Below are positions 14,964-33,496 of a DNA stretch of 64,000 bases, piece after piece (position 1 is the first letter of the stretch; every line of letters begins with the position of its first letter). Source of the DNA: Proteiniborus sp. MB09-C3 (GTDB taxonomy: Bacteria > Bacillota > Clostridia > Tissierellales > Proteiniboraceae). Where the stretch lies: contig NZ_CP127161.1 in assembly GCF_030263895.1 (NCBI RefSeq), positions 3,410,001 through 3,474,000 of the forward strand, given 5' to 3'. The position numbers and the translations under genes were made by a program. The notes under the pieces were generated by a model. The model was given only the letters and a program-made list of their open reading frames with translations, searched no databases and was not told the DNA's origin.

Positions 14964-16274
14964 CTATTCTATTCCTGCTATACTTACATTTAGCAGCTTA
15001 ATTGACTTTGGTCCACTAAAATTATTTATTTTTTGAATTTCCTTTGATAAATACATTTCTTTATGAACCTCATTTATATTACCTGAGATGGAGCCTCCTG
15101 TTACTGGCACTGTTTTTTCTCCATCATTGTACCAGCCTAATCTTATTTCTCCTGCAAAATCACCCGTCAATGTATCCATTTGAAAATCAGAAAATACTTC
15201 AAGTTCTAGATATGCTCCTTCTTTAATCTCTTTTAAAGTCTTAGTTCCACCCTCTACTACAATATTTCTTATATTGCCAGTAGGCTTGATATCTAAATAA
15301 TGAGAAAACCTTGTGCTTCCCCAATATCTTTTTAAGATACCATCTTCGTATAATGAAACTCTTGCCAGTCTAAGACCATCCTCATCATAAGGAGCTGATT
15401 GTGTAGAGTTGTCTAGATAAGGGTCAAGAGCAATGTTGACTTTATCTCCTCTTACATCATCGCCCTGTATATTTTTATCTAGCTTAGCAGTTGAGGTCTG
15501 ATCATAAACCGAACGTGCTCCTGCTTGAACATAATAGTAGGCAAAGAACTCTTTTACTGGCTCACCTGATAATATTACTGGTATATTTTTGAGTACAGGT
15601 GTAGGTTTTGCAATTGCCTTATCTCTACATATTTTTAACATCTCATCTACTGATTCAACTATTAATTTCTCGTCATAGTCTGAAAAGACAATATCCTTAT
15701 ATAGTTCTACTTCTTCGCCTTCTTTTTCTTCCTGCCAATTTGTAATGAACTCAAGCTCTCCTCTATAGGTTTCGTATGAAGCATCCACTCCATTAGAGTT
15801 TAGTATCCTTGTGCTTACCTTGTCTAGGAAAAGCTCTGTTGAATTAATCCAACCCTTATCATATTTATCAGCTATAAAAATTTCATCTGTAAGCTTAGGC
15901 GTCCAATTGGACATAGAATCCTTCGAAAACCTATTTTCCATTATAGGTCTAATCTCTACTTTAGGCTCAACTAATGGATAGTATTCATTTTTTACAAAGC
16001 TTGAAGCATATAATGCGCTGGTTATGGAACTCTCTATGTCTTCTTTACTCATAGTGGGATGTATTGCAGTTGTAGAAGATCCTCTATATTTTTTGCCATC
16101 TTCTTCAAAGTCCTTATAAACAGTGACTTTTATATGATGTACATCCTTAGCCCTATTCATATCAAGCTCTTTTTTTATGAAGAACAGTTCCTTTGACTCA
16201 ATTCTTCTCTCATTGATTTTCCATCCATCTATTCCGTTAATATTTGATAATATTTCTTTTATTTTCTCTATCAT
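14964..16274 (-). CDS. tldE: TldE/PmbA-like subunit of TldD-TldE protease
   Basis: A 436-residue member of the TldD/PmbA family without the HExxxH zinc motif, as expected for the non-catalytic TldE (PmbA) partner. The central SGEPVKEFFAYYYVQAGARSVYDQTSTAKLDKN and C-terminal GDFAGEIRLGWYNDGEKTVPVTGGSISGN blocks are typical of the family. In E. coli the TldD/TldE heterodimer cleaves unfolded peptides and removes the microcin B17 leader. The start codon shares one base with the TldD stop (TAATG), so the two are made together. Confidence 0.88.
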   Translation of the reverse strand: MIEKIKEILSNINGIDGWKINERRIESKELFFIKKELDMNRAKDVHHIKVTVYKDFEEDGKKYRGSSTTAIHPTMSKEDIESSITSALYASSFVKNEYYPLVEPKVEIRPIMENRFSKDSMSNWTPKLTDEIFIADKYDKGWINSTELFLDKVSTRILNSNGVDASYETYRGELEFITNWQEEKEGEEVELYKDIVFSDYDEKLIVESVDEMLKICRDKAIAKPTPVLKNIPVILSGEPVKEFFAYYYVQAGARSVYDQTSTAKLDKNIQGDDVRGDKVNIALDPYLDNSTQSAPYDEDGLRLARVSLYEDGILKRYWGSTRFSHYLDIKPTGNIRNIVVEGGTKTLKEIKEGAYLELEVFSDFQMDTLTGDFAGEIRLGWYNDGEKTVPVTGGSISGNINEVHKEMYLSKEIQKINNFSGPKSIKLLNVSIAGIE

Positions 16275-17704
16275 TATCCCAACCTCACTCTTGCTTTAAT
16301 ATATGGTCCTCCATCAGCTGCTTTTACCCATTCCTTGTAGCCCTTTCCACAAGCTCCTGAACCAAATATCTCCACTTCCTCGGATACCATAGAGATGGAT
16401 TTTAAAACATCTGGCACATAGCCAGTCACAATAACAGGAGACATAATATTTCCTGTAAGCTTTCCATCTTTTATTTCTTTTGCTACAAGGATCATGCATT
16501 GTATTCCCCAATTCTTAGGATCTTCCATACCACTTAGGACAACATCAAGAAGATATCCTTCTTTTATTGAAGCAATCATATCTTCAAGCTTGTTATTGCC
16601 TCCCGCAAAGAAAGTATTAGTCATTCTAGCATAGGCTTTTCTCTCAAAGGATTCTCTTTTCCCATTACCAGTAGGTGATGTTCCAAGTCTAAGAGCAGAA
16701 AGCAAATCTGATATTCCAGTTTTTAGTATTCCTTTCTCTATTATTATAGTATCTGTCCCAAGCACACCTTCATCATCAAAAAGGTATGAGGATACATTCT
16801 CTGCTGCAGCTGCTCCATCATGCATGATTACCAGCTCTGATGCAACCTCTCTATTGATAAACTCAGCAGCTTTTGCTCGATTTTTTACAAACATATCCAT
16901 TTCAACGCCATGCCCAAAGGCTTCATGTGCTATTAAACCTGATATTCCTGGTGAACAGATAACATCATACTCTCCTGGAATGATTTTCTTTGCATCTAGA
17001 AGTTTTTCTGCATATGATACTACTTCTTTTACTTTATTCTGAAGCTCATCTAAGATCTCAACACCTTTTAGTCCTGCTTCACTATCATAATAAAACTTTG
17101 TGTTATCATCTTTTCTAACTACTGCTGAAAGACTACCTTGACTCCATATGTAAGATTGCTCAAGGTCTTTATTTTGAGAAATAAATATTTTGGATATATG
17201 ACACTCTTCGTAGTTTATTCTGAAATCCACCAATAGATTTGAATACGTAAAGGCCTCATTTTTTATTTTAGTCATCTTCCCGATCTTTTCCTCTGCACTT
17301 ACTTCTTCAGGAAGTACCCCTACCTCTTTGAAAAGCTTTTCTGCTATTTTATCTTCTTCTATAACTGGATAAGTACTCGTTTTTATTCCTGAAACTTTCA
17401 GATTATTGATATCTTCATTGACCTTGTTTTTTATATTTTCAACTAATAAGCCTAATTCTGCTTCTGAAAGTTCATTAAAAGAATACTCTGAGTAATTATA
17501 TCCATTATGGACTCTCACTACAAAGCCTCTCTCGGCCCATTCTGAATCATTTAAGCTAGCTCCTGTTTTATAGACTGAATATGTTTTTCCACCTATATCT
17601 GTTCCTAAAACTGAAGCATACTTAAAATCCTTTAGTAGGATTTCTATTAATTTCTTTAGTGTCTTCTTTTGATTTGTTAAATATTTTGACATTGAAACCT
17701 GCAT
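16274..17704 (-). CDS. tldD: TldD zinc metalloprotease subunit
   Basis: A 476-residue catalytic subunit. The zinc motif is HEAFGH at residues 260-265 and the third ligand Cys452 lies in GSGACGKGYKEW, the arrangement known from E. coli TldD. The N-terminal domain before it forms the chamber wall, and the EAFGHGVEMD and DDEGV blocks match the family. An AGGGGG site precedes the ATG. Upstream on the same strand lie three tiny ORFs with very strong binding sites; they are the obvious candidate partners or substrates. Confidence 0.93.
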   Translation of the reverse strand: MQVSMSKYLTNQKKTLKKLIEILLKDFKYASVLGTDIGGKTYSVYKTGASLNDSEWAERGFVVRVHNGYNYSEYSFNELSEAELGLLVENIKNKVNEDINNLKVSGIKTSTYPVIEEDKIAEKLFKEVGVLPEEVSAEEKIGKMTKIKNEAFTYSNLLVDFRINYEECHISKIFISQNKDLEQSYIWSQGSLSAVVRKDDNTKFYYDSEAGLKGVEILDELQNKVKEVVSYAEKLLDAKKIIPGEYDVICSPGISGLIAHEAFGHGVEMDMFVKNRAKAAEFINREVASELVIMHDGAAAAENVSSYLFDDEGVLGTDTIIIEKGILKTGISDLLSALRLGTSPTGNGKRESFERKAYARMTNTFFAGGNNKLEDMIASIKEGYLLDVVLSGMEDPKNWGIQCMILVAKEIKDGKLTGNIMSPVIVTGYVPDVLKSISMVSEEVEIFGSGACGKGYKEWVKAADGGPYIKARVRLG

Positions 17705-17816: not shown

Positions 17817-17825
17817 TAGGATTTG

Positions 17826-17857
17826 GGCAGATGAAGCTATTAAAAACTTCATCTGCC
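17826..17857 (-). promoter_or_regulatory. Stem-loop between small ORF 3 and tldD
   Basis: A perfect 11-bp stem (17826-17836 with 17847-17857) with a 10-base loop and no T-run after it on the minus strand. It probably protects or processes the message, or lowers read-through from the peptide genes into tldD. Confidence 0.5.
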
Positions 17858-17870
17858 TATATTAAACTTG

Positions 17871-17966
17871 TCAGGTATTGTCGATAAAATCAAGCTCATG
17901 ACTTTCTAATAATCCTATATTTAATTCATCCCTGAAACTCCTTGATAAGGATAATAACTTATTCAT
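17871..17966 (-). CDS. Small ORF 3 upstream of tldD (31 aa)
   Basis: This is a 31-codon ORF with ATG at 17966 and a full AGGAGGT site eight bases upstream. The product starts MNKLLSLSRSF and ends with an acidic tail (ESHELDFIDNT). It has no cysteine and does not clearly resemble small ORFs 1 and 2, but it shares their spacing, strand and leader design (an A-rich spacer and AGGAGGT before each ATG). It is the closest of the set to tldD. It may be a peptide precursor, an accessory peptide or a coupling ORF; function is unknown. Confidence 0.5.
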   Translation of the reverse strand: MNKLLSLSRSFRDELNIGLLESHELDFIDNT

Positions 17967-18005
17967 GTTTATATACCTCCTATTTTTTATTATTAATCTT
18001 CATTC

Positions 18006-18116
18006 TTAATACCCGCAACGCTTGCTAAATCCAAGCTTTACATACTCATCAAAATTAGTATATTTCATAAGCTGAGGGAAAAACCAATATTCTGTTAATA
18101 AGCTAATCTTAAACAT
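18006..18116 (-). CDS. Small ORF 2 upstream of tldD (36 aa, Cys near C-terminus)
   Basis: A 36-codon ORF with ATG at 18116 and AGGAGGT upstream. It begins MFKISLLTEYWFFPQ, continues with KYTNFDEYVKLGF and ends SKRCGY. It is clearly related to small ORF 1: both share a leucine-rich start, FFP, KYT, an aromatic residue, an acidic residue, EY, a basic residue with Leu, and a cysteine near the end. The duplication and conserved spacing argue for a translated peptide family rather than chance. No known peptide family is recognised. Confidence 0.62.
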   Translation of the reverse strand: MFKISLLTEYWFFPQLMKYTNFDEYVKLGFSKRCGY

Positions 18117-18166
18117 AACTTCCTACACCTCCTATTTTTTAATAACAAACCTTATTTTTTATATCA

Positions 18167-18262
18167 CTAACACTTTCTAAGCTCAAGCCTTGCATATTCC
18201 TCATAACCAGTATACTTCTTACGCTTGGGGAAAAACAATGATTCTAATAGCAAACTCATCAT
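18167..18262 (-). CDS. Small ORF 1 upstream of tldD (31 aa, C-terminal Cys)
   Basis: A 31-codon ORF with ATG at 18262 (a second ATG follows directly) and an AAGGAGGTGAT site that matches the 16S tail almost fully. It begins MMSLLLESLFFPK, has KYTGYEEYARL and ends in a terminal cysteine. The paralogue is small ORF 2, about 50 bases downstream. The hydrophobic start, basic-aromatic middle and terminal cysteine would suit a signal or modified peptide, but no modification enzyme is adjacent. The nearby TldD/TldE protease is a possible maturation enzyme. Confidence 0.62.
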   Translation of the reverse strand: MMSLLLESLFFPKRKKYTGYEEYARLELRKC

Positions 18263-18333
18263 AAATATCACCTCCTTAATATATGAATTAAATTACATTA
18301 AAGTAATTTGTTGTAAACCAGTAAGCACAAAAA

Positions 18334-18356
18334 AACCGCAGTAATAACCTACGGCT
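18334..18356 (-). terminator. Leader hairpin 3, terminator-like
   Basis: An 8-bp stem (AGCCGTAG with CTGCGGTT on the minus strand, two wobble pairs) followed by seven T residues. It lies about 70 bases before small ORF 1 and shares its sequence pattern with the two hairpins upstream. Confidence 0.7.
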
Positions 18357-18394
18357 TTTTGTTCTATATTGGAGTGAATTTTTCCAAAATAAAA

Positions 18395-18418
18395 AGTCGT
18401 AGGAAATAGCCTACGACT
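18395..18418 (-). terminator. Leader hairpin 2, terminator-like
   Basis: A perfect 9-bp stem (AGTCGTAGG with CCTACGACT) with a six-base loop and a T-rich tail on the minus strand. Confidence 0.7.
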
Positions 18419-18474
18419 AACTTTAGTTTTTAGTAAAAATATATTTATAATATAATTCACCAAATATATAATAA

Positions 18475-18499
18475 AGTCGCAGACTATATGCCTGCGACT
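18475..18499 (-). promoter_or_regulatory. Leader hairpin 1
   Basis: A perfect 8-bp stem (AGTCGCAG with CTGCGACT) with a nine-base loop and a weak T-rich tail. The stem is nearly identical to that of hairpin 2, which suggests the three hairpins arose by duplication. Confidence 0.6.
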
Positions 18500-18547
18500 A
18501 ATAAATCAATTAAAAATTATAACAATATAATATAATTTTACAATTAT

Positions 18548-18622
18548 CTACTTAATGCACAGGCCGTTATTACTATTTCTGTTTTTACTTTTATTAGCTT
18601 TGTTTAAAGTTATCATAATCAT
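18548..18622 (-). CDS. Small leader ORF 0 (24 aa, Asn/Lys-rich)
   Basis: A 24-codon ORF directly after the predicted promoter, with ATG at 18622 and AAGGAGG nine bases upstream. It begins MIMITLNKANK and ends NSNNGLCIK; six of 24 residues are Asn and five are Lys. It precedes three hairpins of terminator type, so it may be a leader peptide whose translation controls read-through, or a further secreted peptide. GGCCGT beside its binding site is complementary to ACGGCC near its end and could occlude initiation. Confidence 0.45.
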   Translation of the reverse strand: MIMITLNKANKSKNRNSNNGLCIK

Positions 18623-18677
18623 CTTTCACGGCCTCCTTTTCTATATTGGTAAACTGTACTAATTGCTCTACTTTTAT

Positions 18678-18706
18678 ATATTAACACCATTTTTTACATA
18701 ATGCAA
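18678..18706 (-). promoter_or_regulatory. Promoter of the small-ORF/tldDE transcript
   Basis: A -35 TTGCAT (18701-18706), a 17-base spacer and a -10 TAATAT (18678-18683) predict a start near 18671, about 50 bases before small ORF 0. Confidence 0.6.
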
Positions 18707-18725: not shown

Positions 18726-19562
18726 TTATTTTTTTATATTTAACTTTATATATTCCTGCATCTTTTGCAGATATCCTTCAGCTATTCTTTTGATAATACT
18801 GTTATTCACTGAGTCCAATTTAATATCATCTATAGTAGCTATAGGAAGAGCATTGACTGATGTTCCTGTCATAAATGCTCCATCAAGGTCTTTTAAAGAA
18901 TCCATATGAACCTCTTCTTCTATTACCTCTATATTTTGCTCTTTACATACATTCATGATTTCATTTCTTGTTATTCCTAGAAGCACATCTCCTGCTGAGG
19001 CTGTATATACCTTATCTCCTTTAACAAAGAACATATTAGATCTGCTGCCTTCTGTAATGTAACCCTTTCTATTTACTAATAAAGCTTCATAGGCATTTTG
19101 TTCCTTTATCTCATCATTGATTCTCTGTCTTAAATCAGCATTGACTATTTTAGCATTAGGATTTTCCCTTTCTGAGTGGAAAAGAATAGTATGGATTCCT
19201 TTTTCATATACTTCTTTTTCTGGATAGCTGCTTTTTATATAGTAAGCCATAAAGGTTTGATTTGGACTATCTACATTGCTACATAAAAGCTTTATATTCA
19301 TATTATACTCTTTATTAGAATCTATCAGCCTATGTATTTCTTGTTTAATTTCTTCATCAGTTTTTTTTATTGTCTTACCTATGAGCTCAGCAGATTTTCT
19401 CATTCTTTCTATATGTCCCTCTAAAAATATGGGAACACCATCTATAACCCTAATTACCTCATATATTAATGGCGAAGATGCTTTCTCAAAGCCTTCATCA
19501 TTTGATGTAGGTTCTATTTCACCATTGTACATATAATATTTTAATATTGATTCATTGTACAT
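18726..19562 (-). CDS. Class IV PLP aminotransferase
   Basis: A fold-type IV PLP enzyme of about 278 residues related to branched-chain and D-amino-acid aminotransferases and aminodeoxychorismate lyase. The probable PLP lysine is in NAKIVNADLR, the phosphate-binding region is YITEGSRSNMFFV and the GVLLG-type loop is DVLLGITRN. The C-terminal FMTGTSVNALPIATID block is typical. The ATG at 19562 is chosen because GAGGTG lies six bases upstream; an earlier in-frame ATG has no site. Substrate preference cannot be assigned from the motifs. Confidence 0.85.
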   Translation of the reverse strand: MYNESILKYYMYNGEIEPTSNDEGFEKASSPLIYEVIRVIDGVPIFLEGHIERMRKSAELIGKTIKKTDEEIKQEIHRLIDSNKEYNMNIKLLCSNVDSPNQTFMAYYIKSSYPEKEVYEKGIHTILFHSERENPNAKIVNADLRQRINDEIKEQNAYEALLVNRKGYITEGSRSNMFFVKGDKVYTASAGDVLLGITRNEIMNVCKEQNIEVIEEEVHMDSLKDLDGAFMTGTSVNALPIATIDDIKLDSVNNSIIKRIAEGYLQKMQEYIKLNIKK

Positions 19563-19637
19563 CCTACTCACCTCTAGTATATTGTTGGTATCCTTCATAT
19601 ACATTATAGCTTATTATGAGTAAAAATATAGTGTTTT

Positions 19638-33241: not shown

Positions 33242-33496
33242 AATATCTATCCCCTTTATCATAAACATTTTGAAAACAGAAAAAACTCCTTGCAAAAGAA
33301 GCTTTTTAAGCAGCTATAAAAAGCCACTACATCTACTAGATGACAATGAAATGAAGCTCCTTTCCAAACATGAGAGGCATGAGTATTTCTATTCATACCC
33401 ATAGGCTTATATCCATTGACTCTTATCTTTAGGTTTATAAGCTCGGAATTATTCTTTTTCTAATCTTATTCTAAATCGTCGATATATTTTTGTCAA
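33242..33496 (-). promoter_or_regulatory. hydA promoter and about 220-nt structured leader
   Basis: TTGACA (33491-33496), a 17-base spacer and TAGAAT (33468-33473) predict a start near 33461, leaving a leader of about 220 bases. The leader contains several possible pairings, including an ATGGGTAT/ATACTCAT hairpin, a CATCTAGTAGATG palindrome and a GCTTTTTA/TAAAAAGC hairpin near 33310. No known riboswitch class was recognised. There is no ORF of note inside. Confidence 0.6.

Follow-up and report, generated by a model that had tools for sequence, protein, structure and literature searches.

Among the closest described counterparts of the locus analysed here is the bmrB leader of bmrCD in Bacillus subtilis, for which it was shown experimentally that ribosome-targeting drugs are sensed by ribosome-mediated transcription attenuation (PMC4191407). 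It is also documented that drugs can stall ribosomes at the start codons of upstream ORFs, hereafter uORFs (PMC12121999). We analysed a stretch of 64,000 nucleotides of the genome of Proteiniborus sp. MB09-C3 (contig NZ_CP127161.1, positions 3,410,001 to 3,474,000), hereafter called the window, in which four small ORFs lie between a class IV aminotransferase gene and tldD (Table 1). We propose, with a probability of about 0.75, that this region combines a ribosome-sensing transcription attenuator with a downstream array of genes encoding tiny proteins, a reading built on the comparison of sequences across related genomes.

A first-pass annotation of the window had reported four tiny ORFs with strong ribosome binding sites on the strand of tldD, and all four are indeed there, on the minus strand. 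Each is preceded by an AGGAGG-type site that matches 7-10 nt of AAGGAGGTGA. When the intergenic region was subjected to 2000 dinucleotide shuffles, ORFs of 20 codons or more whose ribosome binding site is 6 nt or better occurred 0.045 times on average and never more than twice, i.e., four were found in 0 of the 2000 shuffles. The same annotation had correctly located the promoter of the leader. The comparison within the genus drew on three genomes, G001 and G002 among them; for most of the neighbouring proteins, G002 comes out as the sister of the window genome. G002 has TTGCAA, 17 nt and TATTAT at the equivalent place, and most of the related leaders described below are also preceded by a promoter of their own, often with an extended -10. 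We considered an additional promoter immediately 5' of ORF2 and judged it unlikely: the -10-like site present there in G002 would start transcription inside the ribosome binding site. The four ORFs had been described as a leader operon. They are genuine small genes that are under selection and look translated, but they do not form a single unconditional transcript because tandem intrinsic terminators separate ORF1 from ORF2. These terminators had been overlooked, as had the duplication that links ORF2 and ORF3 and the membership of the array in a wider family.

Table 1. Features of the attenuator and array region in window coordinates, listed in the direction of transcription.
Feature	Position	Strand	Evidence or remark
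Class IV aminotransferase gene	18726..19604	-	Pfam Aminotran_4; most constant neighbour of leader and array
P1, promoter of the leader	18678..18706	-	TTGCAT-17-TAATAT (17-nt spacer), TG extended -10; conserved in G002
Arm 1 (AGGCCGT), overlaps the Shine-Dalgarno site of ORF1	18628..18634	-	pairs with arm 2; covaries in 14 leaders; permutation 0/20000
ORF1, putative regulatory uORF (leader peptide), 24 aa	18548..18622	-	uORF at the same position in 13/13 leaders
Arm 2 (ACGGCCTGTG), 3' end of ORF1	18558..18567	-	pairs with arm 1 (OFF) or with the T1 5' arm (antiterminator)
A/T-rich stem bringing arm 2 beside T1	18500..18547	-	13/14 pairs changed on both sides in 14 leaders
T1, predicted attenuator terminator (arms 3 and 4)	18475..18499	-	terminator scan; helix 100% paired, 4 pairs changed on both sides in 14 leaders
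T2, second tandem terminator, arms related to T1	18395..18418	-	terminator scan; identical in G002
T3, third tandem terminator	about 18331..18360	-	conserved in G002
ORF2, 31-aa peptide MMSLLLESLFFPKRKKYTGYEEYARLELRKC, family member	18167..18262	-	family profile, E 1.7e-14
ORF3, 36-aa peptide MFKISLLTEYWFFPQLMKYTNFDEYVKLGFSKRCGY, tandem duplicate of ORF2	18006..18116	-	family profile; duplication alignment
ORF4, 31 aa, divergent last array member, ends DFIDNT	17871..17966	-	comparison with G002
Hairpin 3' of the array, no U tract	17821..17862	-	one G-C pair replaced by A-T in G002
tldD	16274..17704	-	next to the array only in the window; not a constant partner

Two pairings in the leader are mutually exclusive: arm 2, at the 3' end of ORF1, can engage either arm 1 (1:2) or the 5' arm of T1, the latter giving an antiterminator (2:3). 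The arrangement of the uORF relative to these arms is shared by all the leaders examined. In 13 of 13 there is a uORF of 22-42 codons with a ribosome binding site, and its stop lies 15-29 nt beyond the beginning of arm 2, even in the leader whose uORF has 42 codons. The amino-acid sequences of the 13 uORFs are unrelated and show no conserved sequence, and ORF1 compared with its counterpart in G002 has a pN of 0.29 and a pS of 0.52 (pN/pS 0.57). From its position and pairings, ORF1 appears to be a regulatory uORF rather than a peptide precursor. The earlier idea that the small ORFs are peptide precursors is thus kept in part, since ORF2-ORF4 do encode peptides under selection. There are usually two to four tandem terminators per leader, with related arms (CGCAGG and CTGCG), and the hairpin pattern of T2 occurs a single time in the window genome and a single time in G002. 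A known riboswitch or RNA family was discarded as an explanation, as the region has no Rfam match at the gathering score and the matches below it are at chance level. Elsewhere in the window (33340-33460, minus strand), a molybdenum/tungsten riboswitch matches RF01055 with 70.8 bits. We found no further copies of the leader within the window.

The leader has relatives well beyond the genus. A covariance model made from the two sister leaders (R1) recognised clear homologues in further families of the order (in G026 and G011), and a second model (R2) gave strong matches at further loci, the E-values of these RNA models being rough. Across 14 leaders, the OFF structure (1:2, the A/T-rich stem and T1) is 95.5% paired, 20 of its 31 pairs are changed on both sides, no shuffle out of 500 covaries as well, and controls slid along the alignment are only 34-41% paired; the alignment (A11) was fitted to this structure, and its counts lean towards it. 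The antiterminator was left out of the fitting. In the same 14 leaders it is 91% paired, with four pairs changed on both sides, a covariation equalled in 0 of 500 shuffles and slid controls at 27-39%. Arms also pair with better energy within their own leader than with arms swapped from other leaders, both for 1:2 (0 of 20000 permutations, p <5e-5) and for 2:3 (p 0.002). The minimum-energy fold is the OFF state in the window and the ON fold, with the full relay of pairings, in G002, which indicates that thermodynamics alone does not set the default. The leader is a recurrent element across an order of anaerobes that is absent from Rfam. Four matches of the models (L066 and L187-L189) were judged spurious: L066 and L187 have neither arm 1 nor arm 2, and L188 and L189 score no better. 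The leader copy of G010 (L223:15871-15977) lies at the end of the stretch analysed and is cut by that end.

The genes that follow the leaders are of several kinds. One leader is directly upstream of a gene encoding an MsbA-type ABC exporter, with no intervening peptides (L225:14673-16001, in G026), and others precede arrays that are followed by a gene for a SpoU/RlmB-like rRNA methylase or for a GNAT protein. The company of exporter, rRNA methylase and GNAT genes favours, short of proof, a translation-stress signal. A protein of about 1030 aa, which has a GNAT domain at its N-terminus and is for the most part unassigned beyond it, is encoded directly after the array in G002 (L048:8868-11960) and directly after the leader in G011 (L191:2889-6002). 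At two loci, one peptide gene of the family is found 5' of the leader and the remaining array 3' of it (L231:7569-7658 in G018 and L236:8164-8253 in G031).

The region has the elements of an attenuator: a leader ORF with a ribosome binding site, intrinsic terminators ahead of the putatively regulated genes and a mutually exclusive antiterminator. We suggest that they work as follows. Transcription would begin at P1. A ribosome reaching the stop of ORF1 would cover arm 2, such that T1 (and T2 and T3) form and transcription ends; if ORF1 were not translated, arm 1 would hold arm 2 and T1 would form too. A ribosome paused at the start or at the first codons of ORF1 would cover arm 1, and the free arm 2 would then pair with the 5' arm of T1. 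With the antiterminator formed, transcription would proceed through ORF2-ORF4 and, here, probably into tldDE. We infer that the inducer is the stalled ribosome, e.g., under ribosome-targeting antibiotics, and that the peptides act in trans, as small helical proteins, within a translation-stress response. The variability of the uORFs would fit a stall at the start codon, because such a stall needs no particular uORF sequence.

The tandem arrangement of the terminators invites a more speculative addition, a relay in which the 3' arm of T1, once freed, could capture the 5' arm of T2, and likewise along the series. Cross-pairing between the terminators of a same leader is weakly above chance (p 0.038). 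A fuller version would have stall-induced peptide arrays protecting or reprogramming the cell in trans (e.g., with the ribosome or a TPR regulator as binding partner) and being switched by a relay leader with interchangeable terminator arms (OFF 1:2, 3:4, 5:6, 7:8; ON 2:3, 4:5, 6:7). We put this forward as a tentative extension that is probably incorrect in this complete form.

ORF2 and ORF3 are the copies of a tandem duplication of 152 bp that aligns without gaps at 72% nucleotide identity. The first-pass annotation had suggested checking codon conservation in relatives, and this check favours coding: between ORF2 and its orthologue in G002, pN is 0.17 and pS is 0.71, i.e., synonymous changes are favoured. 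For ORF4 the values are 0.39 and 0.59, and its terminal DFIDNT is identical in G002 despite three synonymous changes. The array is real coding sequence, because it is conserved in G002 with pN lower than pS. A profile of the first ten members showed that many families of the order have such tandem arrays. The C-terminus of these peptides is conserved (K-D-x-G-L-E-E-Y-x-K-L-E-[LFY]-R/K) and their N-termini are variable. The recognised tandem copies range from one to ten per array, with ten in G010 (by motif scan), seven in G026 and five to six in G039, G027 and G052. The last members of leader-bearing arrays have a distinct end, often E-x-x-x-[NK]-T, and in several of them a hairpin comes next. 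Outside the order, we found one clear pair, in G440, among 391 genomes spread over the class; our counts of leaders and arrays refer to one order and a thin sample of its class. The peptides match no profile of Pfam, NCBIfam or PHROGs, and a sequence search of the Protein Data Bank gave no convincing relative. ORF2, ORF3 and the divergent ORF4 belong to a previously unnamed family of peptides of about 30 residues.

Some members of the family depart from this common form. The array of G010 (L222:8174-9394) alternates MLGILDK...LELRK and MLVIVDN...LEFKR peptides in repeated pairs, which suggests a recent tandem duplication of a two-gene unit. In G031, three tandem versions of the peptide have 56 aa, with an N-terminal extension (L236:8723-9392). 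Matches of the peptide profile inside longer ORFs (e.g., in G131, G135 and G525) were judged to be due to chance. We also rejected a phage, plasmid or viral origin: there is no peptide match in phage and plasmid records, and two DNA patterns of the peptides found none in IMG/VR. A search of IMG/VR with one leader pattern returned two matches.

What the peptides do allows for several readings. One is that the array acts only in cis, with the small ORFs serving the downstream gene as spacers or as additional sensors of translation, and that the free peptides are functionless. About 30 aa would fit the ribosome exit tunnel, the conserved part is the C-terminus, as it is in arrest peptides, and the arrays sit between the attenuator and larger genes. 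However, the pooled pN/pS of the family, about 0.4, is similar in the two halves of the peptide (0.42 and 0.38), indicating purifying selection on both. Furthermore, there are leaders without arrays (L225, before the exporter, and L186, before a GNAT gene), several arrays lack a recognisable leader, and no terminator was seen between array members in the stretches read. All of this speaks against a role restricted to cis, which we consider unlikely.

Another reading would make the peptides ligands of HTH-TPR regulators, in the manner of the RRNPP quorum-sensing pairs. Two peptide pairs without leader do adjoin HTH_3-TPR genes. In G440, which belongs to another order, the peptides (L247:8516-8724) and the regulator gene (L247:8876-10228) are divergent, whereas in G011 the regulator gene (L237:8407-9690) comes after the pair (L237:7699-7960). 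Yet these are only two of about 20 loci, the two regulators are about 24% identical, none is found near the other arrays, the window has no relative of either, and the peptides have no obvious signal peptide. We consider this reading unlikely.

The short ORFs follow one another in tandem, their ribosome binding sites are strong and the N-termini of their products are amphipathic. These features would also suit PSM-like or antimicrobial peptides, amphipathic and secreted, whose production is triggered by translation stress, and some arrays do have ABC transporter genes nearby (L223, L224 and L239). Export is made quite improbable by the same absence of an obvious signal peptide, by the charged and conserved C-terminus and by the inconstancy of any exporter. 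The AlphaFold model of ORF2, a pair of short helices predicted with modest confidence (pLDDT 72.7 on average), argues in the same direction. The reading that we favour has small proteins that would act in trans downstream of a probable attenuator.

The neighbourhood of the array bears on the role of tldD. In G002 the order is the aminotransferase gene, the promoter, ORF1, three terminators, one ORF2-type gene, an ORF4-type gene and the hairpin, and the array is separated from tldD by genes for a GNAT protein, an amidohydrolase and another GNAT protein, over a distance of 5 kb. G001 has a terminator-like hairpin after the aminotransferase gene and then, 101 bp from that gene, tldD: tldD/E are present and the array is absent. 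These arrangements indicate that the array is linked to the aminotransferase gene and not to tldD. We also looked at about 80 more loci of the same TldD subfamily, and they have no adjacent small ORF in common. The aminotransferase gene, by comparison, is upstream at the window and at ten other loci, sometimes with a C_GCAxxG_C_C-like gene in between. The genes downstream vary: they encode an M29 aminopeptidase, a SpoU methylase, the GNAT protein of about 1030 aa, a DJ-1/PfpI protein, a sigma-54 activator or TldD. The TldD of the window belongs to a distinct subfamily, with 50-83% identity among relatives and at most about 35% to the other TldD-like proteins of the genome. The ORFs are not conserved upstream of tldD in relatives, an outcome that the first-pass annotation had named as evidence against its proposal; they are conserved elsewhere.

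It is hence very improbable that the adjacent TldD/E processes the peptides, be they precursors or substrates, in a minimal RiPP-like or unmodified system. In favour of it, TldD/E is reported to cleave the leader of a RiPP (PMC5810440), the gene next after the array in the window is tldD, and behind several other arrays another peptidase, an M29 aminopeptidase, is encoded. Against it, the adjacency fails in G002, G001 and the wider subfamily, the peptides have no conserved Cys/Ser/Thr core, and there is no modification enzyme nearby, as had already been remarked. The adjacency of tldD/tldE appears to be mostly a coincidence. The frequency of peptidases downstream (M29, TldD) would still be compatible with a possible role in peptide turnover.

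These elements make up a leader RNA and a peptide family that have no entry in Rfam, Pfam or NCBIfam and that recur across an order of anaerobes. The logic of the attenuator can be read from the sequence, which makes its inducer directly testable, and the regulon would indicate the purpose of the peptides. If ribosome stalling is the signal, small proteins would join pumps and ribosome-protection factors among the outputs of drug-sensing attenuators. The locus also illustrates how a tiny ORF beside tldD can mislead towards a RiPP reading.

The locus has features in common with several known systems and differs from each of them in others. It shares with bmrB a short translated leader ORF, an anti-antiterminator, an antiterminator and a terminator, and, as there, one of the leaders found here lies ahead of an ABC exporter gene. 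The likeness drawn here is one of architecture. Here, arm 1 overlaps the ribosome binding site of the uORF itself, the uORF ends before T1 whereas a bmrB-type ORF contains the terminator, there are two to four tandem terminators, and the genes under the leader's presumed control are mostly those for tiny peptides. The toiL uORF (of topAI in E. coli) and the cplR uORF of C. difficile offer precedents for start-codon or early stalling that rearranges RNA pairing, as proposed here (PMC12121999), but toiL acts on translation and Rho-dependent termination, while the terminators of the present leader are intrinsic. With the trp-type attenuators, the locus has in common a leader peptide and the 1:2, 2:3, 3:4 logic. 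In contrast to them, its leader ORFs have no conserved run of codons for one amino acid, and the Asn richness of ORF1 (6 of 24 residues) is not kept in other leaders, for which reason an Asn-sensing attenuator was dropped. The resemblance to the maturation of microcin B17 by TldD/TldE, as described in PMC5810440, lies in the adjacency of tldD and tldE in the window; here this adjacency is not conserved and modification enzymes are absent. Finally, the RRNPP pairs (PMC10075063) resemble two of our loci in having small ORFs beside HTH-TPR regulators, but the present family differs from them by its lack of an obvious signal peptide, by its tandem arrays of up to ten members and by the occurrence of most of these arrays without a regulator.
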